The notes beneath the pieces were generated by a model. That model had not been told where the DNA came from. It did not search any database and worked only from the letters and a program-made list of their open reading frames with translations. From Acidobacteriota bacterium (GTDB lineage: Bacteria > Acidobacteriota > Blastocatellia > Pyrinomonadales > Pyrinomonadaceae), in the NCBI GenBank assembly GCA_019639195.1, contig JAHBSI010000003.1, positions 434,001-498,000 on the forward strand: DNA of 64,000 nucleotides. The letters run 5' to 3'. Positions 26,658 through 62,260 of this stretch are shown here, one piece after another (within the stretch, counting starts at the first letter, position 1; every line of letters starts with the position of its first letter). The translations under genes and the position numbers were made by a program.

Positions 26658-27170
26658 TCATTTTTTTAGAAGGCTCGTTGGCTGTTCTATCAGTCCGAGT
26701 ACGTTTAATTGATTTGCTGACGGACGGAGACTCAGGCCCGTAACGTCCTCAGGCGTGAGGGCCGGTCCTTTCCACCGTCGCTGGGACTCGGGGCTTACTA
26801 CTAGACACCAGGTAGTCGCCGCCGCACGCTGCCGTCCCACGGGGATCGCCCAGAGGGTGAACTCGTGGTGACCGATCGGCGTGTAGAGATAATGGTAATT
26901 GCGGTGGGTCAGGCCGGCCCCGTCCTTTGAAAACTCGCGGGTCTCCTTTTTTTCCCATACGACGCCTTCCAGTTCTCTAAGGTCCTTCGGGAATCCGCCT
27001 CGTTTCTTGTGAAACGAGCGGAGGTCGCGGATCATTACGTCGAAAGCTTCGACCGGCGTTTCCGCGGTCCTCTGCCTCTCCGTTGCCCACAATGAATAAA
27101 CATAGAAGCCGACCACCGCTACCATAGCGACCGGCAACAGGATAAGCGTGATCTTCAGTTGTTTCTGCAT
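26658..27170 (-). CDS. Single-span, pseudopilin-like protein after virD4
   Basis: 170 residues with an N-terminal membrane segment (ITLILLPVAMVAVVGFYVYSLW) and an outside domain. The stretch IRDLRSFHKKRGGFPKDLRE resembles the helix-to-loop turn of GspG-like pseudopilins, but there is no prepilin cleavage site. It follows virD4 by six bases in the minus-strand secretion operon, so it probably belongs to the transfer apparatus. Function unknown. Confidence 0.7.
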   Translation of the reverse strand: MQKQLKITLILLPVAMVAVVGFYVYSLWATERQRTAETPVEAFDVMIRDLRSFHKKRGGFPKDLRELEGVVWEKKETREFSKDGAGLTHRNYHYLYTPIGHHEFTLWAIPVGRQRAAATTWCLVVSPESQRRWKGPALTPEDVTGLSLRPSANQLNVLGLIEQPTSLLKK

Positions 27171-27176
27171 TGGAAT

Positions 27177-29180: not shown

Positions 29181-29185
29181 ATCTT

Positions 29186-29962: not shown

Positions 29963-29969
29963 AACATTT

Positions 29970-32407: not shown

Positions 32408-32416
32408 TGGTGTTTC

Positions 32417-33682: not shown

Positions 33683-33714
33683 AAGATTGATAAGCTGTAT
33701 TTCTTGTGGATGGA

Positions 33715-34521: not shown

Positions 34522-34675
34522 TTCGTGTGCGGACCTGTTCGGCCGTGTTTCGTCGTATTCGCAAAATGAGTGCCAAAGGCGAGAAGGCTTTTTTCGCCGT
34601 TCTAAACATGTTCTTTCCTTCGTTTGGAGCAAAACCGAACCGATGGTGCGGCGGTACGTGGCAGAAATGAACCAG

Positions 34676-35536
34676 TTAGCGTTCTGCCGGGGGAACACCC
34701 GCAAAAGTTGATCTGCCTTTTCGAGCTGGAAGGCTGCGAACTTCGGAAGATATGATCACAGGCGCCTTATGATCTATTGGCTGTAGTTTGCTCTGACCAT
34801 TTACACGAAAGCGCTTTCCGGTACGCGGATCATAGAGCACTATGATCACCGGTGTACCCGAAGGACTCTTTTCTTCGCGAGGTTCTCGCTCTGACGCAAA
34901 TGTCCGTGTTGCTTCATCAAGAGTTGACCTATTCTTTACTCCCGGGAACTTGCCCTGAGCTTCCAGCCATCGATAAATCCTAGTTCCGTTCGCAACATAG
35001 GCAATTGTCTCTTTGTAAGGCGGAACTCCTCCGGACGTTCGTCGTCCGGAAGGGTTTATAAGCTTGCCCTGTGAGCGGATCGTCCTGCCCTCCAGATACG
35101 CTAAAACCGTGCCTTCGCCTGCGTTATAGGCAGCAAGAACAGACTCCAGGCGCCGATCAAAAAGCCGACCGAGATACTTCACATACCGAGCAGCCGCGTG
35201 GATCGACGAGTTCGGTTCATACGGGTCGGCGAGACCGAATCGAGCGGCGGTTGCGGGAATAAACTGCATCAGCCCTTGAGCGTTCTTCGGGCTAGTCAGC
35301 CACGGCCGGAACCTCGTCTCGTTGTATGCGATCGTCCAGAGAAGAACTGGATCCACCCCTTCTTTCAGCGCTGCATCCGCTATTGTTCGCTCGAACAGCG
35401 CAGCGCGTGAAAGCACATCCATTCTTGAAAGTGCGGTCCGCGTGGAAACGGTGCGAGTCTGCGATTTGAGCGACGGAGGGGAGGAAGTGAAAACCACGAG
35501 CAGAAAGGCAGCAGCAATGTAGATTCGTTTTCGCAT
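34676..35536 (-). CDS. Periplasmic lytic transglycosylase (VirB1-like)
   Basis: 286 residues. Signal peptide (RKRIYIAAAFLLVVFTSSPPSL), then an SLT domain: VDPVLLWTIAYNETRFRPWL (catalytic Glu), NAQGLMQFIPATAARFG, YVKYLGRLFDRRLESVLAAY and NAGEGTVLAYLEGR. It opens peptidoglycan so the secretion channel can be built. It is the first gene of the minus-strand operon, divergent from virB2. The C-terminal 70 residues are a variable tail. A start at 35536 with the signal peptide is preferred over the longer frame to 35878, which overlaps virB2. Confidence 0.93.
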   Translation of the reverse strand: MRKRIYIAAAFLLVVFTSSPPSLKSQTRTVSTRTALSRMDVLSRAALFERTIADAALKEGVDPVLLWTIAYNETRFRPWLTSPKNAQGLMQFIPATAARFGLADPYEPNSSIHAAARYVKYLGRLFDRRLESVLAAYNAGEGTVLAYLEGRTIRSQGKLINPSGRRTSGGVPPYKETIAYVANGTRIYRWLEAQGKFPGVKNRSTLDEATRTFASEREPREEKSPSGTPVIIVLYDPRTGKRFRVNGQSKLQPIDHKAPVIISSEVRSLPARKGRSTFAGVPPAER

Positions 35537-35672
35537 GTCGCAAGCGGTTCGCAACCGACGTGCCAACCGCCTCCCATGCGACGCGGCACAAGCCTTGCAA
35601 AGCGAGCCAAACTGTTGACGCTTCCCGAAGTCGGGCGAGGCGCCAGGAAAACCTTCTACGCGAGGACGAGAA
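35537..35672. promoter_or_regulatory. Divergent promoter region of the secretion operons
   Basis: The 136 bases between the two divergent operons must hold promoters for both the transglycosylase-virB8-virB9-virB10-virD4 operon and the virB2-virB6 operon. I see no perfect repeat or textbook promoter box. A GAGGACGAG ribosome site precedes the virB2 ATG. Confidence 0.5.
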
Positions 35673-36014
35673 ATGAAGAAATCTATACGAACCATACGAT
35701 ACGCCGCGGCCCAGCTGGCTCCGGTCGCGGCCGTTCTGCTTTTTACAAACATCCTGTTTGCGCAAGGACCGATCTTCACCGGGGATGCGAGCAATCTTTC
35801 GAACATCATCCGCGAGTCACTGAAGCTGATGGCGATCGTCCTGTTCTGTCTGGGAGCGGTCGGGGTGGCATGGGCCATTTACAACAAGATGACTGGTAAG
35901 GAATGGGGCAACCAGGCGTTCGGCTCTTTGCTTTCATTTGCGTTCGGGACGATCGTCGCCGTCTTCTGGCAGCTTGCTCAAGGCCGGGCGGTCGGAGTCG
36001 ATACCAATTTTTAG
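35673..36014 (+). CDS. virB2: VirB2/TrbC-like pilin
   Basis: 113 residues. Long signal segment (AAAQLAPVAAVLLFTNILFA, cleavage before QGPIF), followed by two hydrophobic helices (IRESLKLMAIVLFCLGAVGVA and LLSFAFGTIVAVFWQLAQG) separated by a short basic loop with KMTGKEWGN. This is the TrbC/VirB2 pilin layout; the mature pilin would be about 83 residues. First gene of the plus-strand operon. Confidence 0.85.
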   Translation: MKKSIRTIRYAAAQLAPVAAVLLFTNILFAQGPIFTGDASNLSNIIRESLKLMAIVLFCLGAVGVAWAIYNKMTGKEWGNQAFGSLLSFAFGTIVAVFWQLAQGRAVGVDTNF

Positions 36015-36023
36015 GAGGGCGAA

Positions 36024-36359
36024 ATGAGACGACGAGCGACCAGGCCCAACGTGTTTCGCGGCCTGAAAAGGTTCGGGGTTTTTTCGACGGACTGGAAGTA
36101 CATACTTGTGCCGACCGGTGTCGCATATCTGACGCCGTTCGTCTTCGGTCTCTGGTTTGGTTATGTACCGCTTGGTTTTCCGCTTGGCTTATTTACGTTC
36201 CTGATACTGCTCGGAACCTTCAACTACCTCCGCCTGAGCAAACCCGAATGCTGGCTTTCGCAGAAGTTCGACGCGGAGATCGATAGGTGGCATTCGATCC
36301 GGCCACCGCTTCACACCGAACTGGATCCAGCCGTCTGGGTAAACCAAACAAAAAAATAA
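36024..36359 (+). CDS. virB3: VirB3/TrbD-like protein
   Basis: 111 residues with RATRPNVFRGLKRFGVFSTD before two closely spaced hydrophobic helices (YILVPTGVAYLTPFVFGLWF and LGFPLGLFTFLILLGTFNYL). This small inner-membrane protein normally sits between the pilin and VirB4 and is needed for pilus assembly, as seen here (9 bases after virB2, 3 bases before virB4). Confidence 0.78.
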   Translation: MRRRATRPNVFRGLKRFGVFSTDWKYILVPTGVAYLTPFVFGLWFGYVPLGFPLGLFTFLILLGTFNYLRLSKPECWLSQKFDAEIDRWHSIRPPLHTELDPAVWVNQTKK

Positions 36360-36362
36360 ATC

Positions 36363-39227
36363 ATGGACACAGCAAACCTTTCATTCGCACACATAGCGAT
36401 CTCACTTTTCGGCAGTCTGTTTTCTGTCGGGCTGGCGTTTGTGGTCGGTTACCGGATCGTTCCGGCATTCAAGGCCCACAAGCGACACTTAGCGGTTCAC
36501 TCGAATCCCAACGCGGTCCAATATACAAAAATCACCCATCCGGGACGGCTGTTCCCGACCGAGATCGCCGGTCTCGACGGCAACATAATCCGTTATAGGG
36601 ATGGGAGCTACGGAAAAGCCTATGTCTTCGAACCCGCGAACAGTCTCTACGTTGACGGAAACGTAACCGAACAACGCATCGAGGAACTCAAAACCATTCT
36701 CAAATTCGAGAAGCCGAAGAACACGATCATCCAGTTTCGGTTCCTCAATTCGCCCGATACAGGAGAGGTGCTCCGTGATCATCTGCTTTCGCGCGATGTG
36801 GAATCGGCGGACCCGATCGCCGGTGTCCTTCACGCGACCAATCTTTCGCTTCATGAAGAAGCTATTCGGTCGGGCAACGTCATGCGGCAGAGCGCAACCG
36901 TCTGGGTACGCGTGCCGGTTCGGGACTCGGCCGATAAAGGAATGCTTTCGTCTTTACTGCCTTCGCTTCTTCGGGACGTGAAGGAAAACGGGATCGCATA
37001 TTTTTTACGCTCACCCTTCTTAAGAGTAAGAAATCGCGAAAGTGAATTGTTGGTGAAACGGGAAATCCGAAGTGAAGCCGTGTGCAGATCGAAGGCGTCA
37101 CGTGTTTTTCAGTCATTCGAAGCAAACTTCCCGCTGAGCCTGCAGCTTCGGGAGATGAGCCGGCGGGAAATTTTCGAGGCACTTTTTATCAGTCACCGAC
37201 GCGAGCATCGATCCGTTCCCATGCTCCCCAACTCCGCGTTGGTCGATATAAGGCGTTATCTGTGCAGTACAAAGATAGAAAGCACGCGAGACCAATTCGT
37301 CCGGCACAATGGCTCCCCCGTGAGTCTGGTCAGCCTGAAAACCCTTCCGAACGGCTTCGTCACGGCAGATATTATGCGGTACCTGACGGCGACGCGAGCT
37401 CTCGGATTTCCTCATGAGATCGTTGTGGATCTGATGACCACCGAAAAACAGGCCGCGAAAAAGGACCTTCAAAAGCGCATCGACCGGATCGAGGGCAGCC
37501 GCAACACCTGGCTCGGATTTCGGAACTTGAAGAAGGACGCGATAGTCATCAAATCCGATCTGGAGAATCTTTTGGAGCAGGTCGAAAGCGATAACGAAGA
37601 GATCTGCAACCTCCGACTTAACGTGATCGTCTTTGCCGGACGCTCGAAAGGAGCAAAAGAGACGCGGAAGCAGCTTGAGTTACTGGACGAACGATGCGAT
37701 GCCGTGGTGTCAGCTATCCGACAAAAGATAGGTGCCGATGCGGTTCGTGAAGACGCCGTTCGTCAGCGCGCACTCTATCCTCGGATGCTTGCGGGCGAGC
37801 TTTCTTCGAAGCGCACGGGCCAGGAGCTCACCGAAACTGCGGATTCCGTAATCGCGTTCGTGCCGACTGAAACGAGTTGGCGAGGCAGCAAACGCCCGCA
37901 CAGCATCTTTACCACTCCGAACGGACAGATGTTCGGCCTCGACCTGTACGACCGAGCCTTGATCAAATCACCGACCGTGATCGTGACGGCCGCATCGGGT
38001 GAGGGAAAGTCGTTCCTCGCGTCGATGCTGATCACGGACATACGCGCACACCGCGGGAACGTGAAAGTGCGCGTAATGGATTATCGCCATTCGTTCAAGC
38101 CCATCTGTCGGCTATTCGGCGGAAGGCAGATAGAGTTCACCGAAAAAGATCCAAGACCGATCAATATCTGGAACTATCCGGGCATCGAGCACGGCGGGCC
38201 TCCCACAAAAAGGCAGCTTGCGATGGTTCTCACCGACATTCTGATCCTGAGCAAAACGCCTAAGACGGACGCGGTCACAAGTGCGATAGCTTCGACCGTC
38301 ATAGATGAGGTCTATAAGATGGCTCTCCCGCGAAACGGTCACGGCCGACCGAAGTTCCAACCGACACTGGGGCACTTTCTCGACATCCTCAAAAGCTATC
38401 ACTGGAACGCGGGCGAAGAGAGGCAGGCCAACGAGCTTTACCTGAAGCTGAACATTCATCGAAAAGACCCATGGCTTAATGCTCCTACCCATCCTGACTA
38501 TGACGCTCCATCAATGTTCGATGTTTTCGAGCTGTCGGGAATAAGCAGCCTCGACGAAAAGATCCGCGAAAGCGTCGGGTTCCGCATCAGCGCCCAGATC
38601 ATGCAGGAGATCGGGGAGGAGAACGCTCAGAACCAGAAACAGCCGATCCTTTTCCTGTGCGACGAGATGCGCGAGATCAACCGGCATTTCCCGGCGATTC
38701 AAGAGCTTATTGCAGAAGCGACCGTTACGGGGCGCAAGGAAGGACTCGTTACGGTACTTTTCTCCCAAGCCTACGAGCATTTCACCGGCACACCTGAGCA
38801 GCCGAACGTCACGGGTATCGATCTGGTGAAAAACTCCGGCGTGAAAATGATCGGCAAGCAGATCGGCGGCTTCGATCGTCTCGCCGACGACTGCGAGCTT
38901 GCTTCCGAGACCGTCGCCGCGATCCGGGGGATCAGGAACCAATACGGCCGCTACACGCAGTGGGTGTTCGTCATCGGAAGCGGTGCGGACAAGATCGTCC
39001 AGCTGGCGGAGATCCACCTTTCGCCCGCGATGTTGTGGGCGAACACCAACGACACGAACGAGGCGAACGCCCGCCGGCTTGTCGAGAATATTCGTCCGGA
39101 TCTTCCACCAGAGATCGTCGTCTCGTGGCTTGCCTCGAAGTATCCGAGCGGATTGACCGCGGTCGGCCTCACGGGGATCTCCCCCATCGATCTGAACGAA
39201 CTTGGCGGCTTGGAGGTGAAAGCATGA
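36363..39227 (+). CDS. virB4: VirB4/TrbE conjugation ATPase
   Basis: 954 residues. A hydrophobic N-terminal helix (SLFGSLFSVGLAFVVGYRIV) is followed by the CagE/VirB4 N-domain and the ATPase: Walker A PTVIVTAASGEGKSFLASML (about residue 540), Walker B KQPILFLCDEMREINRHF (about 762), and VIGSGADKIVQLAEIHLS near the end. It powers pilus assembly and substrate passage. It overlaps virB5 by four bases (ATGA). Length is slightly above the 800-850 typical of the family. Confidence 0.94.
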   Translation: MDTANLSFAHIAISLFGSLFSVGLAFVVGYRIVPAFKAHKRHLAVHSNPNAVQYTKITHPGRLFPTEIAGLDGNIIRYRDGSYGKAYVFEPANSLYVDGNVTEQRIEELKTILKFEKPKNTIIQFRFLNSPDTGEVLRDHLLSRDVESADPIAGVLHATNLSLHEEAIRSGNVMRQSATVWVRVPVRDSADKGMLSSLLPSLLRDVKENGIAYFLRSPFLRVRNRESELLVKREIRSEAVCRSKASRVFQSFEANFPLSLQLREMSRREIFEALFISHRREHRSVPMLPNSALVDIRRYLCSTKIESTRDQFVRHNGSPVSLVSLKTLPNGFVTADIMRYLTATRALGFPHEIVVDLMTTEKQAAKKDLQKRIDRIEGSRNTWLGFRNLKKDAIVIKSDLENLLEQVESDNEEICNLRLNVIVFAGRSKGAKETRKQLELLDERCDAVVSAIRQKIGADAVREDAVRQRALYPRMLAGELSSKRTGQELTETADSVIAFVPTETSWRGSKRPHSIFTTPNGQMFGLDLYDRALIKSPTVIVTAASGEGKSFLASMLITDIRAHRGNVKVRVMDYRHSFKPICRLFGGRQIEFTEKDPRPINIWNYPGIEHGGPPTKRQLAMVLTDILILSKTPKTDAVTSAIASTVIDEVYKMALPRNGHGRPKFQPTLGHFLDILKSYHWNAGEERQANELYLKLNIHRKDPWLNAPTHPDYDAPSMFDVFELSGISSLDEKIRESVGFRISAQIMQEIGEENAQNQKQPILFLCDEMREINRHFPAIQELIAEATVTGRKEGLVTVLFSQAYEHFTGTPEQPNVTGIDLVKNSGVKMIGKQIGGFDRLADDCELASETVAAIRGIRNQYGRYTQWVFVIGSGADKIVQLAEIHLSPAMLWANTNDTNEANARRLVENIRPDLPPEIVVSWLASKYPSGLTAVGLTGISPIDLNELGGLEVKA

Positions 39228-46972: not shown

Positions 46973-47683
46973 TCATCCGAACAGGGATCCCTGCGCGGTC
47001 TCTTCGTCCTTTTTGGCTACGGATTCCTCTTTTGCTTTTTTTTTCGGTGGTGGATTTTCTTCGGGATAGAGTTTTTCGAGCGTGTCGGGCATTTCGTCCG
47101 CGACCATCTGGCCGGCGTAAGGGACAAGCAGATCACGGTTCCCATTCATCAGCCATTCTTTTTGAGTGTCCTTGGAATCAAGGATGACAGGCATTGCCTG
47201 CGGGTGAAGGGGCAGCATGAAATCGTTCGATTCAACAGTAAAGGTCGCGAAAGAAAATCTAGGCGATCCATTATCGAACCATCTACTCCATAGTCCGGCG
47301 AGCGAGTAGGGCTCGCGGTCGGCTAGCATGATCTTGACCGGCGGGATTCCTTTCCCCTTTATCGGCCATTCGTAAAAGGCGTCGATCGGAAATATACATC
47401 GCTTGCCCGATTTCAGCAGCGGTGGCCACATCTTTCTCTGGTCCATCGAATCGACACGGATATTGAATGCGGGAAACTTCGCTTCGAATTCCGTTGCGTT
47501 GTCCCACTGACACCACCAGTTCGCCTTTACGGTTGCAACCTGTCCTTCCGACAGATGAGCGACGATATTGGTTTCCTCCGTAGGCCTGATGTTTCGACGA
47601 GGAGTGAACTGCTCGGGCATTTCCCAGCCATAGACACGCTCGAAATATCTGTCAACTTCTTCCTGCGATGCTCGTCCACACAT
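46973..47683 (-). CDS. SRAP-domain protein (YedK/HMCES-like abasic-site protease)
   Basis: 236 residues. The Met is followed by the catalytic Cys2 (MCGRASQEEV), then PRRNIRPTEETNIV, FNIRVDSM, CIFPIDAFYEWP (catalytic Glu) and PLHPQAMPVIL (His). SRAP proteins form a covalent shield on abasic sites in single-stranded DNA. The protein adds a Lys-rich tail ending AQGSLFG, in which QGSLF resembles a sliding-clamp-binding peptide. Two small zinc-protein genes precede it in the operon (9-base gap). Conjugative elements expose much single-stranded DNA, so the role fits. Confidence 0.94.
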   Translation of the reverse strand: MCGRASQEEVDRYFERVYGWEMPEQFTPRRNIRPTEETNIVAHLSEGQVATVKANWWCQWDNATEFEAKFPAFNIRVDSMDQRKMWPPLLKSGKRCIFPIDAFYEWPIKGKGIPPVKIMLADREPYSLAGLWSRWFDNGSPRFSFATFTVESNDFMLPLHPQAMPVILDSKDTQKEWLMNGNRDLLVPYAGQMVADEMPDTLEKLYPEENPPPKKKAKEESVAKKDEETAQGSLFG

Positions 47684-51197: not shown

Positions 51198-54100
51198 ATG
51201 TTATCAAGCTACCAACAATCGGCGGGCACAGCTGCGCCGTTTTCAGCGACAGCGGCGGCCACTGTGTCCGTGGAGGCGAGCGAGCCTGATACTACCGATC
51301 AGATATTGGCGTACGCGCCTCGATTCGTTGTTGGTGGAGCCGCACATCCCGGCGTCATAGTCGAACCGCCCGGCCTTGCAAATGTCGAACCTCCACCGAT
51401 CACTTATCGTCCGTGTTTGCCGAGAGAGTTGTCCGAAACAAGTAAGCTCTCGGCGATGCAGATCGAGAGGATTATCTACGCCGGGCAGGCTCACGAGCAA
51501 CGACTTGCGGACGGCTCACGTGCCGGCATCAGTATCGGCGACGGGACCGGGACGGGAAAGACGGCGACGCTTGCGGGAATAATTCTCGACAACTGGTTTC
51601 ACGGCAGAAGGCGGGCGGTATGGTTTTCAGTCAAGGCCGACCTGATCGAAGCCGTCTCGGATGAATTCGCGAGGCTTAGTCTGAAGCCGCCGATAAAGCT
51701 CATAAACGACTATCCGACCGATGGCGAGATCGATATTGGCGAGGGAATAGTTTTCTGCACATATCGTTCTCTGATCGCCCGCTCAAGATCGGGCACCCGG
51801 CGAATTGACCAACTGATCCGCTGGCTCGGAACCGAAGGAGTGGTGATCTTCGATGAGGGCCATAAAGCGAAATATGCCTTTGCGGATGATCGAGGCAAGT
51901 CGACACAAACCGGAGCGGCGGTGCTAGAGATCCAGGGCCCGGAAAAGTATCCCGATTTCAGAGTTGTCTATTCATCGGCAACGTCCGCAGGCGAAGTACG
52001 GCATCTCGCATACATGTCTAGGCTTGGACTTTGGGGCGAAGGAACGAATTTTCCTTTGGGCTTCGAGCAGTTCGCAGAGGAGATCGAATCGGGCGGGGTC
52101 GGAGCGCTCGAGATGGTCTGCCGCGACCTGAAAGCGATGGGGCGGTATCTTTGCGGGAACCTGGCCATGGGCACCGATCCGGAGTCCGGCCTTGCGGTAG
52201 AGTTCCGTGAAGTGACCCATTGGCTGACTCCGGCCCAACGGAAGATGTACGACAACATGGCCCAAGGCTGGCAGGAGGTATTTCGGAATATCCACCGTGC
52301 CCTCGATCTCACCAATTCCGGGAAAGCTACGCGAGCCCAGGCGGTCAATCAATTCTGGGCAGAGCATCAGCGGTGCTTCAGAAATCTCATTACAGCCTTC
52401 AAGGTTCCAACGCTGATACGCGAGATCGAAGCCGCGCTCGGGCGACGGGAGTCAATTGTCGTTTCGATTACCGGAACCGGCGAGAGCCAGACAAAGAAGC
52501 AGATCGAGCGTGCAGCGGATCAGGACGAGGCGATCGACAGCCTGGATTTTAGCCCACGGGAAACTTTGACCCGGCTCGTGACCCAGTGCTTTCCAACCGC
52601 CTGCTTTCAGGAACGGTCGAATCCATATAGCGGCACGATCGAATATATTCCCGTGCTTGACTCTAACGGGAATCAAGTCGAGAGCCGTGCAGCCTTGCAG
52701 CTAAGAGCCGAACTGCTTGATAAACTCTCGGTTCTCGAAGTGCCCGAACACCCGCTCGATCAACTCGTCAACTACTTCGGCGTCGAGAACGTAGCCGAGA
52801 TGACGGGGAGAAAAAAGCGTCTCATCCGAACGACCTCCGGCACTCTCGAATATCGTCCCCGCCAGCTTCCGGGAGTTCCGTCGAAGCTCATCAATCTTCA
52901 CGAGAAGAACGCATTCCAGAACGGCGATAAAAGGATCGCCATCATGTCCGAAGTCGCTTCGACCGGTGACAGCCTTCACGCCGGATGTCAGGTCGGAAAC
53001 AAGCAGCGGAGGCTTCACATTGCAGCCGAGCTAAAATGGTCGGCCGACAAGCAGATCCAGGACTTCGGACGAACTCATCGGACGGGACAAGTCTTTCCGC
53101 CAGTTTATCTGCTCGTGTTTACAGAACTGGGAGGAGAAAAGCGGTTCTCGGCGACGATCGCCCGCAGGCTCGGGAACATGGGAGCACTAACAAAGGGCGA
53201 TAGAAAAGCGGAGAAGGCAGGCAATCTCGACAAGTACAATCTCGAATCGAAGGAAGGCCGCTCGGCTTTGAACGTGGTGCTAACCGCCATTATGCGTGGC
53301 GTCGAGATCGAAGGGATCGAAGATCCGAAACAGGCTTTGCGGGATATGGGGCTTGTCCGAAATACCGATGACGGCGAAGTGGTTCCGGACAGTGAGAAGA
53401 CGAACATTCCCAGATTTCTAAATCGGCTTTTATCATTGGAAGTGGATCGGCAGAACGCTTTGTTCGATCATTTTTACGCAACGTTCCTTGAGACTCTCGA
53501 ATACCTGAAACAGAACGGAAAGCTCGATGATGGCATGGAAGACCTAAAAGCGATGTCGGTCGAGATCGCGGAACCTCCGCAGGTTCTCCACTCCGATGCC
53601 CTTACCTCCGCTAAGACGGTCTATTACAAGCTTAACCTGAAAGTAGCCACAAAACCCGCTAGATACTCAGAGTTATCAGAAACCGGTGTTCATCAGTTCT
53701 TCCAGGACAGGCGTGACGGTTCGTTTGTCGCGGTTCGCAGAACGCTTTCACATACCGATCCCGAAACGGGCGAGAGATATCAGATGTTCTCGATCTCGAA
53801 ACCCGAGGGTCGTAATCTTGCCTATATTCGTGAAAGCGAACTGAACCAGAAGTATCGCATTGTTCCTAAAACAAAGGCGGAGAAATGGTGGCTGGCTGAG
53901 GAGACAAAGATTCCTTCTTTTGAAGACAAAACCGTACATTTGCTTAGCGGTACTTTGCTTCCGATATGGAAATATCTCAAGACTCTCAGCAAGGATGCTC
54001 TCAATATCGTTCGAACAACAACGGACGACGGCACAAGGCTTGTCGGTGTAAGGATATCGGAAGAATGGCTTCGCGATCTTTTTCGCCACTTCGGGCTGCG

Positions 54101-54524
54101 ATCCGATATCCCGACAACCGCTCCGGAAGTTCTTCGCATGGTCGATTTCGAGAACAACACTGTGCATCTTACCGGTGAGATCCGGATAAAAACCACTCGG
54201 TTTCAGGGGCGCCTCCTTACAGAGGTCTGCCCTTCCATGTTCGAGCAGATCCGCGAACTTCGCGAGATGGGGCTGGTCAATATCGTTCAGAACGGAAAGC
54301 AGCGGTTCTTCCTGCCCGAACTGTCGCCACATATTTATCTCGAACCGGTCCTGGCTCTTTATCCCCCAATATCAACCGATATCGACTTCCTGCCGGAATT
54401 AAACCCTGAGTTCCAGGCTCTTAAGAAAGAGGCGCCTGTGAGTCTGCCCCAGTGGCTACGTGTACCCGATCCGAGAGAGGTAAGCGAACTGCAAATATTC
54501 GAGGAGACGCTGCTTTTGAGTTGA
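51198..54524 (+). CDS. Strawberry-notch-like SF2 helicase
   Basis: 1108 residues. Helicase motifs: Walker A ISIGDGTGTGKTATLAGIIL (about residue 110), DEGH box GVVIFDEGHKAKYA (about 215), SAT-like VVYSSATSAGEV (about 255), and later RIAIMSEVASTGDSLHAGCQ and DFGRTHRTGQVFPPVYLLVF (motif VI, about 620). DEGH and TGQ-type motifs are those of the Sno/strawberry-notch family, which in phages and conjugative elements is linked to methyltransferases and anti-restriction. Long C-terminal half (about 400 residues) is of unknown fold. Confidence 0.9.
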   Translation: MLSSYQQSAGTAAPFSATAAATVSVEASEPDTTDQILAYAPRFVVGGAAHPGVIVEPPGLANVEPPPITYRPCLPRELSETSKLSAMQIERIIYAGQAHEQRLADGSRAGISIGDGTGTGKTATLAGIILDNWFHGRRRAVWFSVKADLIEAVSDEFARLSLKPPIKLINDYPTDGEIDIGEGIVFCTYRSLIARSRSGTRRIDQLIRWLGTEGVVIFDEGHKAKYAFADDRGKSTQTGAAVLEIQGPEKYPDFRVVYSSATSAGEVRHLAYMSRLGLWGEGTNFPLGFEQFAEEIESGGVGALEMVCRDLKAMGRYLCGNLAMGTDPESGLAVEFREVTHWLTPAQRKMYDNMAQGWQEVFRNIHRALDLTNSGKATRAQAVNQFWAEHQRCFRNLITAFKVPTLIREIEAALGRRESIVVSITGTGESQTKKQIERAADQDEAIDSLDFSPRETLTRLVTQCFPTACFQERSNPYSGTIEYIPVLDSNGNQVESRAALQLRAELLDKLSVLEVPEHPLDQLVNYFGVENVAEMTGRKKRLIRTTSGTLEYRPRQLPGVPSKLINLHEKNAFQNGDKRIAIMSEVASTGDSLHAGCQVGNKQRRLHIAAELKWSADKQIQDFGRTHRTGQVFPPVYLLVFTELGGEKRFSATIARRLGNMGALTKGDRKAEKAGNLDKYNLESKEGRSALNVVLTAIMRGVEIEGIEDPKQALRDMGLVRNTDDGEVVPDSEKTNIPRFLNRLLSLEVDRQNALFDHFYATFLETLEYLKQNGKLDDGMEDLKAMSVEIAEPPQVLHSDALTSAKTVYYKLNLKVATKPARYSELSETGVHQFFQDRRDGSFVAVRRTLSHTDPETGERYQMFSISKPEGRNLAYIRESELNQKYRIVPKTKAEKWWLAEETKIPSFEDKTVHLLSGTLLPIWKYLKTLSKDALNIVRTTTDDGTRLVGVRISEEWLRDLFRHFGLRSDIPTTAPEVLRMVDFENNTVHLTGEIRIKTTRFQGRLLTEVCPSMFEQIRELREMGLVNIVQNGKQRFFLPELSPHIYLEPVLALYPPISTDIDFLPELNPEFQALKKEAPVSLPQWLRVPDPREVSELQIFEETLLLS

Positions 54525-54976: not shown

Positions 54977-56047
54977 ATGAACAATCAGGATGCTGTCGCC
55001 AACACCGACACAGGGTCGTTGATCTTGGAGGAAAAGATAGCGCTTTACGCCCGAGTACCGCATTACGTGCTGATCACCGGCGAGAGGGGAACCGGCAAGA
55101 CGACGATTGCCCGCAAGCTTCACGAGCAAAGTCCGAGATTTAAACGGGAGTTCGTAAGTGCCAATTGCGCTAGCTTCACGGCAGAACTTCTCGAATCGGA
55201 GCTGTTCGGCTACGAGAAAGGAGCATTCACGGGAGCGAATGCCGCCAAATCAGGGCTATTCGAGACCGCTGACGGCGGAACTCTCTTCCTCGATGAGGTC
55301 GGCGAACTGTCGTTCAGTCTTCAGGCTAAACTGCTAAAGGCTGTCGAAGAAAAACGCCTCCGGCGTGTTGGTGGCAATCGGGAGCGGGAGATTGACGTAA
55401 GGATTATCGCTGCAACTTCCAAAAACCTCCACTCGATGGTTCTTGAAGGGGGATTTCGGGCCGACCTCTTCGACCGTCTCAACATACTGCAACTTGAGAC
55501 GATCCCGCTTCGGTTCCAGCGGGAGCAGATCCGCGATCTGTTCATCCGGCAGATGAACGAGGAAAGTGCCGCAGTGGGCAGAGCTTGCCCGTTTGTTATT
55601 GACGACGAGGCTCTTGCGAGGGTCGAGTTGCTCGAATGGAGAGGTAATTATCGAGAACTCAGGAACTTTGCCTCCCGCCTTGCAGTCCAGGCTTTCAACG
55701 CTCCTTCGATCACGGAGGATATCGTTCTACATGTCGCCGGGATCGGCCAAAGCAAAGCACAAGTCTCCGACTCCCCGATAGAACCGGGCATTCATCTGAA
55801 CCGATCGAATCTTGTAACGGTGACGCTGGATGCGGACACGGACGACCTTGACAGCGTTTACGTGAAGGCGGCTGCCACGTTCATCGAACATGCGCTCAAG
55901 AGATCCCGTGGGAACCTGCGTCGTGCCGCCCGTTCAATGGGGACGACGCATTCGACACTTTCGCGGATATTGAAGAAGCACAAAGAAAGTGTCGCGATCA
56001 GCTCTTGTGCTCCGCCAAAACAGTCGGCCTACTCCGCCGCCGCGTAG
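54977..56047 (+). CDS. Sigma-54 activator without receiver domain
   Basis: 356 residues. AAA+ core: Walker [41 protein letters not shown] containing the sigma-54-contact GAFTGA, and Walker [21 protein letters not shown]. The C-terminus has a Fis-type helix-turn-helix ([20 protein letters not shown]). Only about 25 residues precede the AAA+ domain, so there is no sensor or receiver domain; activity is probably controlled by protein level or an external partner, as in PspF. It stands ahead of the PRTRC operon, which it may activate by inference. Confidence 0.9.
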
Positions 56048-56295: not shown

Positions 56296-57444
56296 ATGGA
56301 AATCTTGAACAGCGGTTCGTTCGTACCGCTCGACAACCGGGAAAAGATCGACCAGCTTATCTACACGGCGAGAGAACTTGCGACGGAAGTAAGCCGGGCT
56401 GAAGGATTCCAGAACAGTGGCCAAACCAATCATCAACTCGGGCTTGAGATGTGGAAGGGAGCAGAGTATGTCTGTCGGGCTCACGAAGAAGCGAATATCC
56501 GAAATCTCTTCCTTAGCAAGTTTCTCGAAAGGCTTCGTGAGATCGAAAAGGAAAGAACAGTTCAGACTAAGCCTGCTCAGGCGCCTCCGGTATTTACATC
56601 ATCGGTTCGGCCGCCTGCATCCGCTCCAGTTTCAGTTCAACCGCCACAGCCGCCGGCACTGCAAACAGTACCGGAACCGCCGTCTCAAACTGCAGCACAG
56701 GACGAATACCTCGGGGTTGTTCCTGCGGATGACCAAGCCGAGAATAAGCGACCATCCTATGCTGACGAATGTGTGCCGGAATACGATCCGGATATCGAGG
56801 CAATAGTGGAGAGGCTCGATAATGAGGGCCCGGCGTCGGACGCCGATGGATCGTCCGGACAGCTCGGCATGGAACCGGCACAACCCGCGATCACCGAGAC
56901 AGCCGATGCGCCTGTCAAAGAAACAGGAACAGATCATCCGATCACAATCGAGCCAAGTGCTTCAAGTGATGTTGCCGCAAACGAAGGCCAGCCCAACGTT
57001 GCGGAATCGGTCGAATCGGAGTCGATAGAGTCTGTCGTCCTTGCCGAAAAGGAGCCTTACAATCTTGATGCCTGTACCGTTACGGCTGTCATTCAAATGC
57101 TTCCCGAAAATTCTGGCTCACGTAAATGCATCGTCAGCATGCGGACCCACGATTTTGCACCGTTGGTTGCCGTAAGCGAGGCGGGAGTTCGAGAGATCAT
57201 CCCGCATATTTCTGCTGCGTTGAGTGACGCCTTGGAGCAGTATCGGATCGATCTTCCTGCAAAGGCGGCCGAGAAATTGAAGAAGGAAAAGCCGGCCGCC
57301 AGGAAACAAGCCAAATCAAGCTCAAAGACGGCGAAGGCAACAACGGTCCAATCGAAGGCGACCACGAACTCCGAAACGACGACCGCTGTTTCCGCCCCGA
57401 ATCCGGAAACGGATCAAAGCCAGCGAGCGCTTTTTACATCGTAG
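56296..57444 (+). CDS. Probable PRTRC E-position protein, low-complexity middle
   Basis: 382 residues. A helical N-terminus (KIDQLIYTARELATEVSRAE) is followed by 150 residues rich in Pro, Ala, Gln and Glu, then a compact domain with VTAVIQMLPENSGSRKCIVS and LSDALEQYRIDLPAKAAEKL, then a Lys/Ala/Thr tail. By position (before PRTRC C) it corresponds to PRTRC protein E, whose members carry a similar short alpha/beta segment; the match is weak. No catalytic motif. The 248 bases before it hold its promoter. Confidence 0.65.
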   Translation: MEILNSGSFVPLDNREKIDQLIYTARELATEVSRAEGFQNSGQTNHQLGLEMWKGAEYVCRAHEEANIRNLFLSKFLERLREIEKERTVQTKPAQAPPVFTSSVRPPASAPVSVQPPQPPALQTVPEPPSQTAAQDEYLGVVPADDQAENKRPSYADECVPEYDPDIEAIVERLDNEGPASDADGSSGQLGMEPAQPAITETADAPVKETGTDHPITIEPSASSDVAANEGQPNVAESVESESIESVVLAEKEPYNLDACTVTAVIQMLPENSGSRKCIVSMRTHDFAPLVAVSEAGVREIIPHISAALSDALEQYRIDLPAKAAEKLKKEKPAARKQAKSSSKTAKATTVQSKATTNSETTTAVSAPNPETDQSQRALFTS

Positions 57445-57475
57445 GCTTCCAAAAGAATTCCAGGAGAAATCGATT

Positions 57476-57742
57476 ATGGAACAGAAGAAAGAAGCTCCGG
57501 CTGCTGAGCCGGAAGCCGCGGAAAATACGAGTACGGATACTGTTACTGAGCCCAAGGCGACGGTCAAGATCGAAGGGCAGGAATTCGAGCTTGATGCTGC
57601 ACTGGCACAGGAGGATAAGACCTTAAAGGTCGTCCTTCAGCCGCATTTCGCGTCTATCGAGAACGCGAATATCACGCGCGAAGTGAAGGACGGAAAGCTC
57701 ACGGTCACGATCGTCAAACGTGCCCAGCACAAAGGAGCATGA
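57476..57742 (+). CDS. PRTRC protein C, prokaryotic ubiquitin-like
   Basis: 88 residues. After a 30-residue disordered N-terminus the fold region reads VKIEGQEFELDAALAQEDKT, LKVVLQPHFASIENANITRE and KDGKLTVTIVKRAQHKGA, the pattern of the PRTRC C family, which belongs to a prokaryotic ubiquitin-like (Prok_Ub) group with a beta-grasp fold. It ends KGA rather than a free Gly, so trimming of one residue would expose a C-terminal Gly. ATG at 57739 of the next gene overlaps its stop. Confidence 0.8.
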   Translation: MEQKKEAPAAEPEAAENTSTDTVTEPKATVKIEGQEFELDAALAQEDKTLKVVLQPHFASIENANITREVKDGKLTVTIVKRAQHKGA

Positions 57743-57984
57743 TGAACGGCGAGTCTCCGCTGGAGATCCTGATCGGTGAAACGGAACAGGTGAATCCGGC
57801 GATCCTTTTGGCCGAGGAGTTCATGCGAAGGGATGCCGCCGACGTTCTCAGTGCGGAAGATGTAAACCGCGCAGAAGAGGTCTTGAACGAAGGCAGAATG
57901 GAGATCGAGACGATACGGCGTCAGATCGCAGCTTTCGAGAGATCTTCCCCAAGTCCATCAATTCACACACCGACAGGATTCTAA
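57739..57984 (+). CDS. Small acidic protein in the PRTRC operon
   Basis: 81 residues, acidic and helical (SAEDVNRAEEVLNEGRMEIE), no recognised family. It starts in the stop region of the ubiquitin-like gene (ATGATGA; ATG at 57742 is also possible) and ends one base before the next gene. Tight spacing argues that it is translated and works with its neighbours. Confidence 0.65.
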   Translation: MMNGESPLEILIGETEQVNPAILLAEEFMRRDAADVLSAEDVNRAEEVLNEGRMEIETIRRQIAAFERSSPSPSIHTPTGF

Positions 57985-58800
57985 ATGGGATTTGTGCGGC
58001 AACATCCGAACAAACCTGGGTTCAACGAACGGCTTTCGAGATCGCTTGAGTACCTGAGTTTCAAGGCGCGAAGTCACAACGCGATTGCCTCTTACGAACT
58101 TGTCGAGCGTGTTCTCGCCGAGCAGCGGAAATATGCCATGTATCGGGAGATGTTCCCGAAGGAATGGAAGCATTCCCGAGCGAGTCTTTACAGCCGCGGC
58201 TACTACGCGAGATACAGCGAGCGGGTCAACGAGCTATTCAATCTGGTCAATGAGAATTGCTTCCCGCTGTTAGATTTCGCTTACGAAGACACTGAGAACG
58301 ACTTCGAGCAGTTCGCCATACCGCCCATGAACGTGGATCTCTGCTGCGAGGATATCTACTTCGACAATCTGAAGCTCAGTTACACCGCCGCGTTGATCTT
58401 TTACATCCCCGATGATGCCTGGGATTTCCTAAACCAGCGGTTCAAGTTGTCAAGAAGTGATTTTCCCGAGATAGATTCTGATCCCCATCCAAACGTCTGG
58501 GATCGAAAGAACGGTTCCCTATTCGGGGAACTTCTGCGATTAGTCGATCACTCAACCGGTAATCCGTGGCTCGACAGCAACTATTGCCAAAGTGCCGACT
58601 GGTTCAGCTGGGACCGAGAAACGATCGTTGGGCTCACGGCGGAATACAAGGCAGCAAATGACGTCTTCGAACGATTGAATATCCTCGATGAAATGATCGA
58701 GGCCGATCCGAAAAAGATGCTGCGGGCACTTATCGACTTCTGGAACAAGGGAGAACACCCGGATCTCATGTTGCCAGCCCCTGTGGAGAAAGACACATGA
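57985..58800 (+). CDS. Probable PRTRC F-position protein
   Basis: 271 residues. Mostly helical, with SHNAIASYELVERVLAEQRK, IPPMNVDLCCEDIYFDN and YTAALIFYIPDDAWDFLNQR. Its position after C and before B fits PRTRC protein F; sequence support for that is limited to general similarity. It overlaps the ERF gene by four bases. Confidence 0.65.
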   Translation: MGFVRQHPNKPGFNERLSRSLEYLSFKARSHNAIASYELVERVLAEQRKYAMYREMFPKEWKHSRASLYSRGYYARYSERVNELFNLVNENCFPLLDFAYEDTENDFEQFAIPPMNVDLCCEDIYFDNLKLSYTAALIFYIPDDAWDFLNQRFKLSRSDFPEIDSDPHPNVWDRKNGSLFGELLRLVDHSTGNPWLDSNYCQSADWFSWDRETIVGLTAEYKAANDVFERLNILDEMIEADPKKMLRALIDFWNKGEHPDLMLPAPVEKDT

Positions 58801-59297
58801 ACAAGAGCGAAAGCATCGGTAATCTCGCAAAATCATTGGCCCTGGTGCAGGCCAGCCTCGCGCCCGCGAAGCGCGATTCCACGAACCCGTTCTTCAACTC
58901 GACGTATGCCGATCTCAGCTCGGTTTGGGAGAGCTGTCGTGAGCTTTTGGCGAAGCACGGGCTCAGTGTGATCCAGGGTAACAGCATCGGGGCGAACAAT
59001 ACGGTTATTGTCGAGACCATCCTGGCCCACGAATCCGGACAATGGATACAAAGCGAACTCTGTATGCCTCTCGCGAAGAACGATCCGCAGGGAGTCGGTT
59101 CGGCCATCACGTACGGCAGGCGTTACGGCTTGGCGGCCATCGTCGGGATAGTCGCCGACGACGATGACGACGGAAATGCGGCATCTGCCAAGAACGGTAA
59201 CGGACATGTTCGGCCTATGCCGCAGAATCAGCTGCCTCAGAACCGTCGTCCCGTTTCCGCGAATCAACCTACCCGCGGGTCCGTCCCGGTCCGTTAA
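58797..59297 (+). CDS. ERF-family single-strand annealing protein
   Basis: 166 residues. The ERF core is ALVQASLAPAKRDSTNPFFN, then STYADLSSVWESCRELLAKH and QGVGSAITYGRRYGLAAIVG, ending in DDDDDGNAAS and a polar tail. ERF proteins anneal complementary single strands in phage-type recombination. It is inserted between the F- and B-position PRTRC genes and overlaps the former (ATGA), so it is co-translated with the cassette. Such an insert is not part of the standard PRTRC set as I know it. Confidence 0.93.
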   Translation: MNKSESIGNLAKSLALVQASLAPAKRDSTNPFFNSTYADLSSVWESCRELLAKHGLSVIQGNSIGANNTVIVETILAHESGQWIQSELCMPLAKNDPQGVGSAITYGRRYGLAAIVGIVADDDDDGNAASAKNGNGHVRPMPQNQLPQNRRPVSANQPTRGSVPVR

Positions 59298-59299
59298 GG

Positions 59300-59986
59300 A
59301 TGGGTGTCATGAGGAATCACACAGTACCGCCGGATGCGGAGGCCGCTCTCTATTTTCTCCCTGGGCAATACCTGTTCGAGACCTTCGGCGAGATCAGGAA
59401 AGGCCTGAAGGCTTTGTCGAGCGTACAAGTGACGAGGGCTTTTCGCGATCTTCAAACGGATACGGGATGGATAGATCGAAGGGTCTTAAGGTATCGAGAA
59501 GCTACTGACGGGAACGCGATACTTTCGTACCTACCGGCGGGCGTCCGGACTGTTACGATAGCGTTTCCCGGCGATCGCATTGAGACCCTAACCTTGCCTC
59601 TCCCGACATTGGTCCTTCTAGGAAAGGGGAAAGACTACTATTTGTGGGCCTCTTCGACATCCAAAGTCACACCTGGTTCTCGTCTCGCTGTGGCTCCCTT
59701 GCCGAACATCGGTTCGGGAAAGATTTGCTTTGGGAAGAATGAGGTTCCGGAGACACATCCTTCGACGCTTCATACGGTCTGGAAACTTATCTTCGACTCA
59801 CCGTTCAACGGCGATCATTCGACGGGCAGATGCCAGACGGAGAATGATGTTCGCGATCTGCTTGCAAAACTGGCGGCGGACAATCTTAAGAAGTTCCCGG
59901 CAACCCAGTTGATCATGTCGTCCAGTACAGTCGAGGACGCCTGGGAGAGCATAGTCGAACGTACCCGATACGACAGCCGCTTTTAG
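59300..59986 (+). CDS. PRTRC protein B, prokaryotic E2-like
   Basis: 228 residues. SRLAVAPLPNIGSGKICFGK and TVWKLIFDSPFNGDHSTGR match the PRTRC B family, grouped with prokaryotic E2-like (Prok-E2_D) proteins. Cys143 in GKICFG is the candidate thioester-forming residue. It lies between ERF and the JAB protease gene. ATG at 59300 or 59309 would both fit; the operon spacing is 2 bases from ERF. Confidence 0.82.
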   Translation: MGVMRNHTVPPDAEAALYFLPGQYLFETFGEIRKGLKALSSVQVTRAFRDLQTDTGWIDRRVLRYREATDGNAILSYLPAGVRTVTIAFPGDRIETLTLPLPTLVLLGKGKDYYLWASSTSKVTPGSRLAVAPLPNIGSGKICFGKNEVPETHPSTLHTVWKLIFDSPFNGDHSTGRCQTENDVRDLLAKLAADNLKKFPATQLIMSSSTVEDAWESIVERTRYDSRF

Positions 59987-60002
59987 TTTCAATTCTTCTT
60001 AT

Positions 60003-60659
60003 ATGTCATCGAATCTACTTGCTCCACCAAAACTGGTAGGGCATCGCATCGCTGCGACCGAAAATGACCCGATAGATGCGGCTCTGTTCGAATATCTCCT
60101 CGCCGGGAATGGTCTATTCGTCCGGGCAAAACGAAGGGAGTTTGCAGTATCCTTGCCGCTTAGTTTGCAGAAGATCTGGGGCCTTCCGAACGGCCCGATC
60201 GGGATCTCGTGGACAAAGTCGAGGATTCCAGCGTCATTGTGGCATACGATATTGCGACATAGCCAGCAAACGCACACATCCGCGAACTTTAGAGAGGAAG
60301 TCTACCTGATCTATTGGGATCAGGTCCTCGGCGCCTGGCAATGGCGAGCATCGGGCCGTGAAAGCAATTGGGCATCGACCATCGCCGACGATACTCTCCC
60401 CGAATACGCTCAATGCTGCATAGAGCTGCATACTCACCCGCCCGGAGCTTTGCACTTCAGCAGAGCGGATGATCGAGACGAACTCGGTAAGTTCCGCATC
60501 TTCGCGATCCTCATCGACGTTCACGACAAGCCGAAGATACGGTTCCGCTGCGGGGTTTATGATCACCTTATCCCGATCCCGGCCGTCTGGGTCGGGGAGA
60601 TGCCCGAAGGAATCACCGACCTAAATGAGATAGACGCCCTTGTGGAGATATTGTCGTGA
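60003..60659 (+). CDS. PRTRC protein A, JAB/JAMM metalloprotease
   Basis: 218 residues. The JAMM signature is complete: IELHTHPPGALHFSRADDRD gives H-x-H-x7-S-x2-D, with an upstream Glu in FREEVYLIYWDQ. JAB proteins remove or mature ubiquitin-like tags using zinc. The last four bases overlap the ThiF gene. N-terminal 100 residues are a family-specific alpha/beta region. Confidence 0.88.
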   Translation: MSSNLLAPPKLVGHRIAATENDPIDAALFEYLLAGNGLFVRAKRREFAVSLPLSLQKIWGLPNGPIGISWTKSRIPASLWHTILRHSQQTHTSANFREEVYLIYWDQVLGAWQWRASGRESNWASTIADDTLPEYAQCCIELHTHPPGALHFSRADDRDELGKFRIFAILIDVHDKPKIRFRCGVYDHLIPIPAVWVGEMPEGITDLNEIDALVEILS

Positions 60660-61549
60660 ACGGGATAGATCTCAGCTTCGCCCAAGCCGCCGTTGTGATG
60701 CCGAAGGAGCACAATAAGCTGCGGATCATACAAGTAGGGGCGGGCGGTACAGGGTCATTCGCCTCGCTTGCTATCGCCCGGCTCATGTACGAGCTAAAGG
60801 AGTCCGGAAAAGCAGTTGAATTCCTTATTGTCGATCCTGATGTAGTTGAAAGCGGGAACATTCCGAGAAGCAACTTCTGCACGGCGGAGATAGGAAGCAG
60901 TAAGGCCCAGACGCTCGCGAAAAGGATCACGCTTGCCTGGGGCCTTGAATGCCACTACGCGAACGAGCCGTTCGATGCTGAAGTCCATCTGAAGCAATCT
61001 TCGGGAGACTACCGCACGCTCACCGTTATCATCGGCTGCGTGGATAATCATCTCGCAAGGCGAGCGATGCACCTTGCGGTCGAAAAGCATCAGGGCTATC
61101 GGTCGGACGACGCCGCAAACATCTGGTGGATCGATGGCGGGAACGGAAAGTTTTCGGGACAGGTTCTTATCGGCTCGAATACGAAGCAGCTCAAGCCAGC
61201 AAAACTCTTTGTCGGATCGAGCATCTGCAGATCCCTACCCGCTCCGTCTTTGGTTCATCCGGAACTATTGACCGATCAGGATAAAGAAACGAGGTCGCAT
61301 GCTCCGACTTCTTGTCCGGATCGCATCCGATTAGGGGAGCAGAGCCTGAACGTTAACCAGCGGGTCGCGGTTGAGATCGGCGAGATGCTGACAGGAATGT
61401 TCCTCACACGCAATCTCAGGCGCTTTGCGACCTACTTCGATCTCGAAACCGGCACAAGCCGCTCGTTGTATTGCACACCGTCGAGTATTGAATCAGCGCT
61501 GTCTCCGGTCCGAAGCCGCTCGAAGGTGAAGCGTGCTCACGCAAAATGA
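60656..61549 (+). CDS. PRTRC ThiF-family E1-like enzyme
   Basis: 297 residues. Nucleotide-binding loop IIQVGAGGTGSFASLAIARL (about 20-40), FLIVDPDVVESGNIPRSNFC (the Asp and Asn/Arg of ThiF/MoeB adenylation sites), VIIGCVDNHLARRAMH (candidate adenylate-site Cys) and a later FVGSSICRSLP with another Cys. ThiF/E1 enzymes adenylate the C-terminus of a ubiquitin-like or sulphur-carrier protein, here presumably PRTRC C. Its stop overlaps the DUF2958 start by 17 bases. Confidence 0.9.
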   Translation: MNGIDLSFAQAAVVMPKEHNKLRIIQVGAGGTGSFASLAIARLMYELKESGKAVEFLIVDPDVVESGNIPRSNFCTAEIGSSKAQTLAKRITLAWGLECHYANEPFDAEVHLKQSSGDYRTLTVIIGCVDNHLARRAMHLAVEKHQGYRSDDAANIWWIDGGNGKFSGQVLIGSNTKQLKPAKLFVGSSICRSLPAPSLVHPELLTDQDKETRSHAPTSCPDRIRLGEQSLNVNQRVAVEIGEMLTGMFLTRNLRRFATYFDLETGTSRSLYCTPSSIESALSPVRSRSKVKRAHAK

Positions 61550-61895
61550 CATGAACGAACTTCTGCCGGATGACCTTAGAAATAGTCTTCCACGGCTCTA
61601 CACGCAACAAGACGTATCAGACCCGATTGTTCACGCGAAGTTTTTCTTCCCTGGCTGCGCGTGGACCTGGCTGGTTACAGAGGGCCAGCCCGAAGGCGAT
61701 GACCTTACGTTTTTCGGTTATGTGATCGGCTTCGAGGCCGAATGGGGTTACTTCACGCTACAGGAACTTGAGAGCGTAAATGTTAGAGGATTACTGATTG
61801 AGCGCGATGTTTATTTCGAACCTTGCAAACTCAGCCGGTGCTTGTCCGATTTGAACTCGCAAGGATTGTGTCCCAGCAAACCTGGAGTAGGATGA
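61533..61895 (+). CDS. DUF2958 protein
   Basis: 120 residues. The signature is KFFFPGCAWTWLVTEGQPEG, LTFFGYVIGFEAEWGYFTLQ and LESVNVRGLLIERDVYFEPC. DUF2958 is a small family of conjugative elements and phages with no known biochemical role. It overlaps the ThiF gene and closes the plus-strand PRTRC operon. Confidence 0.88.
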   Translation: MLTQNDMNELLPDDLRNSLPRLYTQQDVSDPIVHAKFFFPGCAWTWLVTEGQPEGDDLTFFGYVIGFEAEWGYFTLQELESVNVRGLLIERDVYFEPCKLSRCLSDLNSQGLCPSKPGVG

Positions 61896-61963: not shown

Positions 61964-62260
61964 CTAACGCCCCTCGCTCAGTTTGCCAATGATCCCTAGG
62001 ATGCCAATAATGTATGTCGCAATCATCCATCCAGTCGCAAACTTAACCCCTCGCTGCGCGGCCGCAACGTTCCCTGCATCGGCGTCTTGCTTCGCCTTAT
62101 ATGCCATATAGGTTGCAATGCATCCGCCCAAACAACAAAACAGGATACTGATTGCGCTGATAACAAGAATAGTATTTGCCTGCCTCGAAATGGCGGCTAA
62201 TTCTGCAGCTTCAGCTGTGGCCTGTTCGGCAGTCTTTTCTTCAAGATCTAGAAATGACAT
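61964..62260 (-). CDS. Small two-span membrane protein (CD225-like layout)
   Basis: 98 residues. After a 28-residue acidic N-terminus there are two membrane helices (TILVISAISILFCCLGGCIA and ATGWMIATYIIGILGIIGKL) separated by a basic loop with YKAKQDADAGNVAAAQRGVK, the general layout of CD225/dispanin-type proteins. Transcribed opposite to the conjugative genes; no link to them is evident. Confidence 0.7.
   Translation of the reverse strand: MSFLDLEEKTAEQATAEAAELAAISRQANTILVISAISILFCCLGGCIATYMAYKAKQDADAGNVAAAQRGVKFATGWMIATYIIGILGIIGKLSEGR

Follow-up and report, generated by a model that had tools for sequence, protein, structure and literature searches.

The closest described relatives of the locus analyzed here are the type 6d operons, in which Iyer, Burroughs and Aravind brought together a ubiquitin-like (Ub-like) protein, a JAB protease, E1-like and E2-like proteins and an alpha-helical protein, and which, in their prediction of 2006, are true ubiquitin-like protein (Ubl) conjugation systems (PMC1779556, Table 1, row 6d). 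That work noted the C-terminal Gly of the Ub-like protein, made the general prediction that such Ubls are processed by JAB proteins, and placed the operons on mobile elements, including those of cyanobacteria and Bacteroides, with ParB not a defining component (PMC1779556). We found no description in the literature of the targets of 6d operons or of the related PRTRC cassettes. Here we describe a cassette of this kind in a 64,000-nucleotide stretch of an Acidobacteriota genome (contig JAHBSI010000003.1), which we call the window; coordinates are positions in the window, and L-numbers denote the related loci compared with it. Our preferred reading, to which we give a probability of about 0.55, is that of a working 6d/PRTRC Ubl conjugation cassette, carried by a conjugative element and tethered to the sliding clamp through its protein E.

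The window cassette contains an E1-like ThiF, an E2-like B protein with a conserved Cys, a JAB protease A with an N-terminal domain and a small Ub-like protein C with a C-terminal Gly, all of them features of the 6d operons; its mostly helical F is, by position, a candidate for their alpha-helical protein. It is unlike these in its ERF insert, its separate orf81 gene, its long E protein with a clamp motif, and its DUF2958 and sigma-54 activator neighbours. With the PRTRC cassettes (NCBIfam TIGR03734 onward; for example Paraburkholderia PPGU16_p2 and Cupriavidus pHG1) it has the order E-C-F-B-A-ThiF in common, but it has no PRTRC ParB, its F cannot be aligned, and its A, B and ThiF proteins score 40, 63 and 128 bits and do not reach the curated NCBIfam cut-offs of 102, 131 and 145. 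Its features place the cassette among the 6d operons of Iyer et al., and it lacks the ParB that characterizes the NCBIfam PRTRC group. Its nearest relatives beyond the Acidobacteriota are cassettes of cyanobacterial plasmids (Anabaena pANACY.02, Aulosira, Chroococcidiopsis and Pseudanabaena; ThiF 33-43% identity), which also possess the orf81 domain and mostly a QxxLF-ended E protein, but in which C and orf81 are mostly fused, ERF is missing and a plasmid dnaN is usually present. The Bil and Bub systems have a similar outline, with E1, E2 and JAB protease functions in Ubl or Ubl-like conjugation. The same is true of CBASS Cap2/Cap3 (PMC10097602). From these three the window cassette differs in its separate E1 and E2 genes, its other operon partners and the lack of a known effector. 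A side observation concerns the Tunicatimonas pelagia plasmid (L071), which carries a JAMM-less 6d/PRTRC cassette and, a few kilobases away, a second Ubl system consisting of multiubiquitin, ThiF and DUF6527.

Enzymes, modifier and maturation

An earlier note on this stretch had recognized a ubiquitin-like protein, an E2-like protein with a candidate Cys, an E1-like ThiF and a complete JAMM protease, and all four assignments are borne out (Table 1). In the cross-phylum alignment of ThiF the Ser-Cys pair, Arg, Lys and Asp are invariant, and the candidate catalytic Cys143 of B lies in a P-x-N-x(n)-C-x-G motif whose Cys, Gly and Asn are invariant in 18 aligned proteins. A sequence search of B against the PDB returned zero matches. 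The JAMM motif HxH...S..D of A (H143xH145...S153xxD156) is invariant across phyla. C, E, F and orf81 gave no direct match in the Pfam and NCBIfam scan, and the names that the earlier note had given to E and F are less secure: E is weakly linked to PRTRC_E, and F is named by position only. The predicted model of F is mostly helical (mean predicted local distance difference test [pLDDT] 64) and too weak for a fold search; a sequence link to PF14456 (alpha-hel2), sought with profiles as well, was not found, and F has the position of that protein. Ubl conjugation as such is the likely function of the cassette, judged from its gene content and catalytic residues.

Iterated profiles tie C to the canonical Prok_Ub found on proteobacterial PRTRC plasmids (round 3, E 3e-13), along a path that ran through distant Acidobacteriota and cyanobacteria; a direct comparison of the two profiles is weak (E 0.009), and the intermediate sequences were needed. 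Its predicted structure (mean pLDDT 77, core 86-91) has a strand-strand-helix-strand-strand, beta-grasp arrangement, and in end-to-end alignment with ubiquitin gives Z 4.3-4.8 and a root-mean-square deviation of 2.6-2.9 Å over 58-59 residues, with Lys86-Gly87 coinciding with the end of ubiquitin. Among the best structural matches of the model are ubiquitin and Ubl domains, plus other beta-grasp-like proteins such as protein G. With such modest Z values the fold match is by itself supportive of a Ubl assignment, not proof.

The C terminus of C and the orf81 gene together point to a maturation step. In the window clade C ends in KRAQHKG followed by zero to six residues, varying among loci, and proteobacterial C proteins often stop exactly at KG, RG or NG. 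C and an orf81-type domain form one open reading frame in plasmids of Anabaena, Sphaerospermopsis, Gloeocapsa, Leptolyngbya, Aulosira and Chroococcidiopsis, and also in distant Acidobacteriota (L073-L078), the joint lying right after KG (NG in Leptolyngbya); L065 is among the loci with the fusion. In Pseudanabaena and Planktothrix the two are separate genes and C stops exactly at KG. P-x-G-F is the C-terminal end of every complete orf81 protein (32 of 32). Residues beyond the Gly of C are found in 14 of 17 lineages with a JAMM gene and in none of 12 without (29 lineages; Fisher p 1e-5, uncorrected for relatedness), a comparison in which the presence of JAMM changes about six times along the ThiF tree and for which its absence was verified across whole plasmids or genomes. 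Because residues past the Gly occur only together with a JAMM gene, A is probably the protease that matures C by freeing its Gly. As far as the literature examined shows, the C-orf81 fusions and the tail/JAMM rule are new evidence. A frameshifted A gene beside a tail-less C (L016/L086) was not used in support of the rule, as the helicase and activator genes there are also broken.

The PADLOC family PDLC01077 (C3a152, "Type III-C specific") is the Ubl precursor in which C and orf81 are fused in 6d cassettes (Anabaena protein, E 2e-66; L065:6327-6761). On some plasmids of cyanobacteria such cassettes adjoin type III CRISPR genes; the "Type III-C specific" label is probably wrong.

Protein E and the sliding clamp

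The linker of E is hypervariable and mostly looks disordered, and near its end Q376, L379 and F380 are invariant among 17 aligned relatives. A Q..[LMI][FL] pattern occurs in the last 14 residues of 33 of the 34 complete Acidobacteriota E proteins, where composition shuffles lead one to expect about 0.07; the remaining proteins of these cassettes and their neighbours, about 365 in all, include one with a QxxLF-type end. Independent E proteins of cyanobacteria and Vibrio end in QLTLF, QISLF, QLSLF, QLKLF, QRSLF or QVTMF. The published consensus for clamp binding is QL[S/D]LF or QxxLF (PMC12309361), and the QRALF of the window E protein fits the latter and lies in a flexible region. A dnaN homologue is present on all eight plasmids whose E protein has the motif and on three of 14 whose E protein does not (Fisher p 0.001, uncorrected); it follows the cassette closely in Anabaena, Sphaerospermopsis, Aulosira and Vibrio, and the only cyanobacterial plasmid examined with a motif-less E, that of Pseudanabaena, also has no dnaN. 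We consider clamp docking through the E peptide, as read from these sequences, somewhat probable. The genome of the window has one dnaN, on another contig, so that the element would need the clamp of its host. A second conserved short stretch lies in the middle of the E linker, near DEYLGVV...RPSYADECVPE.

The genes present, the conservation of the catalytic residues, the boundary at Gly, the tail/JAMM link, and the clamp motif with its dnaN co-occurrence lead us to infer a series of enzymatic steps, a clamp contact and a class of substrates. C would be made with residues past its Gly, one in the window and an entire orf81 domain in some relatives; A would cleave behind Lys-Gly, leaving the reactive Gly at the C terminus, and may in addition strip C from its targets. 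ThiF would then adenylate C and hold it as a thioester on Cys220, from which C would move to Cys143 of B and onto a lysine of the target. E, through its C-terminal QxxLF, would dock the machinery on DnaN, so that targets would be clamp-bound or fork-associated proteins. The ERF protein, a co-translated accessory specific to the clade, would supply the element with strand annealing of its own at the same place, and may or may not be a target.

Several points weigh against this account. Three JAMM-bearing plasmids have a tail-less C, and both the tail/JAMM and the motif/dnaN tests count related plasmids as independent. QxxLF is missing from most E proteins of ParB-bearing proteobacterial cassettes, and clamp docking would accordingly not be a general property. 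Gly at the third position of the motif weakens binding to the Escherichia coli clamp (PMC12309361), and QQGLF is common among the E proteins compared here.

In eukaryotes, the sliding clamp PCNA organizes Ubl conjugation, in the form of ubiquitylation and SUMOylation, that acts on proteins of annealing and repair; the likeness to the window cassette is one of analogy only. We suggest tentatively that a QxxLF-docked bacterial Ubl system tags clamp- or fork-bound proteins and thereby controls replication or recombination of a mobile element, with the JAMM protease freeing the modifier from a fusion precursor. By that analogy such a system might, as an equally speculative proposal, be a bacterial counterpart of PCNA-directed ubiquitin and SUMO signalling, and if docking is true, clamp-coupled Ubl signalling would cease to be exclusive to eukaryotes. 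The clamp motif points to a docking partner open to a peptide test, and the split and fused C-orf81 precursors together with the tail/JAMM rule offer a direct assay for the protease.

ERF, ParB and alternative readings

The ERF gene is a genuine single-strand annealing protein gene with a predicted annealing function, as judged by its family match (Table 1) and the conserved core motif TYGRRYGLAAIVGIVADDDDDGN. The insertion with an ATGA overlap that the earlier note described is real (the F and ERF genes share 58797-58800), and such inserts are present in many related loci. The host genus has 31 cassettes and 19 ERF genes, none of which was found outside a cassette; 18 are upstream of B, and the nineteenth is downstream of E, C, orf81 and F at the point where its contig stops. 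Eighteen of the 31 cassettes thus carry ERF and 13 do not. The gene has a single slot, F-ERF-B, overlapping F in 16 of 16 complete loci checked, mostly by ATGA, and in one close relative, L099 (and L010), a 3.6-kb insert separates it from B. None of the 25 6d plasmids from other phyla carries it. A tree of B and ThiF puts the ERF carriers together in a single branch (support 91), in which 17 of 28 loci have ERF and several losses are apparent; this suggests that ERF was gained in this branch and then lost repeatedly.

The earlier note was also correct that the ParB-related gene is absent. There is no PRTRC-type ParB on the element, and the genome has a single TIGR03734-like match, a chromosomal-type ParB of 300 aa on another contig (C1:713925); nor does a PRTRC-type ParB lie just outside the window, where the contig ends 3.3 kb further on. 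The absence is no peculiarity of this locus. Among 25 PRTRC/6d plasmids, a full-length PRTRC ParB is present in those of proteobacteria, Nitrospirota and Desulfuromonadia and absent from those of cyanobacteria, Bacteroidota, Chloroflexota and Deinococcus and from one Vibrio plasmid, so a missing ParB is normal for the branch comprising cyanobacteria, Bacteroidota and Acidobacteriota. By gene content, the window cassette is a member of a ParB-less, ERF-carrying branch of the 6d/PRTRC Ubl operons.

The earlier note had proposed that tagging may act on recombination proteins. A tie to replication and recombination stands, through the clamp peptide of E and dnaN, and does not run mainly through ERF. 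The constant slot between F and B, the overlap with F and the confinement of ERF to cassettes in the host genus would suit a reading in which ERF itself is the substrate or a regulated partner and tagging controls annealing recombination, but ERF is absent from 13 of 31 cassettes of the genus and from all 25 other 6d plasmids, and where the tree implies its loss the rest of the cassette was kept. ERF therefore cannot be a general substrate; it is a stable yet dispensable accessory of this branch and not the defining target, and we regard its being a tagging target at all as improbable. Very improbable is a role of C as a ThiS/MoaD-like sulfur carrier, for which ThiF would merely make a thiocarboxylate for some element-borne modification: the beta-grasp fold, the Gly end and the ThiF-family enzyme would fit, but the Cys of B and of ThiF is invariant in every protein aligned, a JAMM gene is often present, and zero sulfur or cofactor genes lie nearby. 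It is somewhat unlikely that the QxxLF end of E serves a partner other than DnaN, with E a scaffold that has no tie to replication. Short motifs are easily over-read and the E proteins of proteobacteria have different hydrophobic tails, but Q, L and F are fixed at the end of an otherwise hypervariable linker and dnaN co-occurs with them on plasmids.

A further possibility is that the cassette serves defence or counter-defence, in a way like that of CBASS-Cap2, Bil and Bub, and puts C on phage, plasmid or host proteins to hinder rivals, with the clamp motif aimed at foreign replication. Defence functions are found in related Ubl systems of bacteria (PMC10097602), the 6d operons are mobile and occur patchily (PMC1779556), and the cassettes of Anabaena and Sphaerospermopsis lie beside type III CRISPR genes. 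Against this, the cassette fits none of the PADLOC defence models, apart from the generic E1-E2 similarity of ThiF and from C3a152; on plasmids, cassettes of this kind lie in the replication and partition region, with ParB, dnaN and primase neighbours; and three ThiF-based scans of viral contigs, single-protein scans reaching close relatives only, found no relative with any of the three queries. We consider a defence role unlikely, and prefer conjugation tethered to the clamp.

Host element and neighbouring genes

The cassette is one of three such cassettes in a Pyrinomonadaceae-type Acidobacteriota genome of 3.2 Mb. The element bearing it encodes a relaxase, a coupling protein and a VirB4-like ATPase (Table 1), and is by this gene content a conjugative element. 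The gene order is E-C-orf81-F-ERF-B-A-ThiF-DUF2958; the earlier note had the succession right but missed orf81 between C and F. Like F and ERF, C overlaps orf81 and A overlaps ThiF, and two bases separate ERF from B; on account of these overlaps and the short gap the cassette gives the impression of a single compact unit of transcription and translation.

Table 1. Features of the cassette and its host element in window coordinates
Feature	Position	Strand	Evidence
Conjugation region of host element	21452-39227	.	three parts by PF18555, PF02534, PF19044
MobL-type relaxase	21452-23842		PF18555, E 8e-11
Coupling protein	27177-29180		PF02534, E 3e-31
TraG/VirB4-like ATPase	36363-39227		PF19044, E 4e-6
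Strawberry-notch-type helicase, conserved upstream neighbour	51198-54524	+	PF13872, 3e-90; PF13871, 7e-85
Sigma-54-type AAA+ activator without sensor domain, Fis-type helix-turn-helix at end	54977-56047	+	PF00158, E 6e-62
E, disordered linker protein, 382 aa, ends QRALFTS	56296-57444	+	position and weak profile link to PRTRC_E
QRALF, candidate sliding-clamp-binding peptide, E C terminus	57421-57435	+	QxxLF-type motif
C, putative ubiquitin-like modifier, 88 aa, ends KRAQHKG-A	57476-57742	+	iterated profiles, beta-grasp model
Gly87, presumed mature C terminus of C; Ala88 the sole residue after it	57734-57736	+	invariant Gly
orf81, 81 aa, ends P-x-G-F, split-off partner of C	57739-57984	+	fusions with C in relatives
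F, mostly helical, DHSTGNPWLD motif	57985-58800	+	position only
ERF-family single-strand annealing protein, 166 aa	58797-59297	+	PF04404, E 4e-31, 108 bits against a cut-off of 25
B, E2-like (Prok-E2_D)	59300-59986	+	PF14460, E 1.6e-22, 80 bits, above cut-off; NCBIfam PRTRC_B, 2e-17
Cys143 of B, candidate catalytic residue	59726-59728		invariant
A, JAMM/JAB protease with N-terminal domain	60003-60659	+	PRTRC_A, E 2.6e-10
JAMM motif of A	~60429-60470		invariant
ThiF, E1-like adenylyltransferase	60656-61549	+	TIGR03736 (PRTRC_ThiF), E 5e-37; PF00899, 1e-10
Cys220 of ThiF	61313-61315		invariant
DUF2958 protein, overlaps end of ThiF gene	61533-61895	+	PF11171, E 1.2e-12

The sigma-54-type activator is a conserved upstream neighbour with the same placement in 28 related loci. 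Control of the operon by this protein was considered and dropped: no -24/-12-like site was found in 22 intergenic regions, nor was one found upstream of E in the window. The DUF2958 gene comes after ThiF in most related loci.

Elsewhere on the element, an SOS-response-associated peptidase (SRAP; 46973-47683, minus strand) and a single-strand-binding protein (SSB; 15285-15905, plus strand) represent further single-strand DNA functions. A 1722-aa helicase outside the cassette (559-5724, minus strand) resembles Druantia DruE (PADLOC E 5e-77), and a Fic-type protein (13104-14510, minus strand) resembles the defence candidates PDC-S04 and SoFic. A CD225/IFITM-like membrane protein (61964-62260, minus strand) adjoins the cassette.

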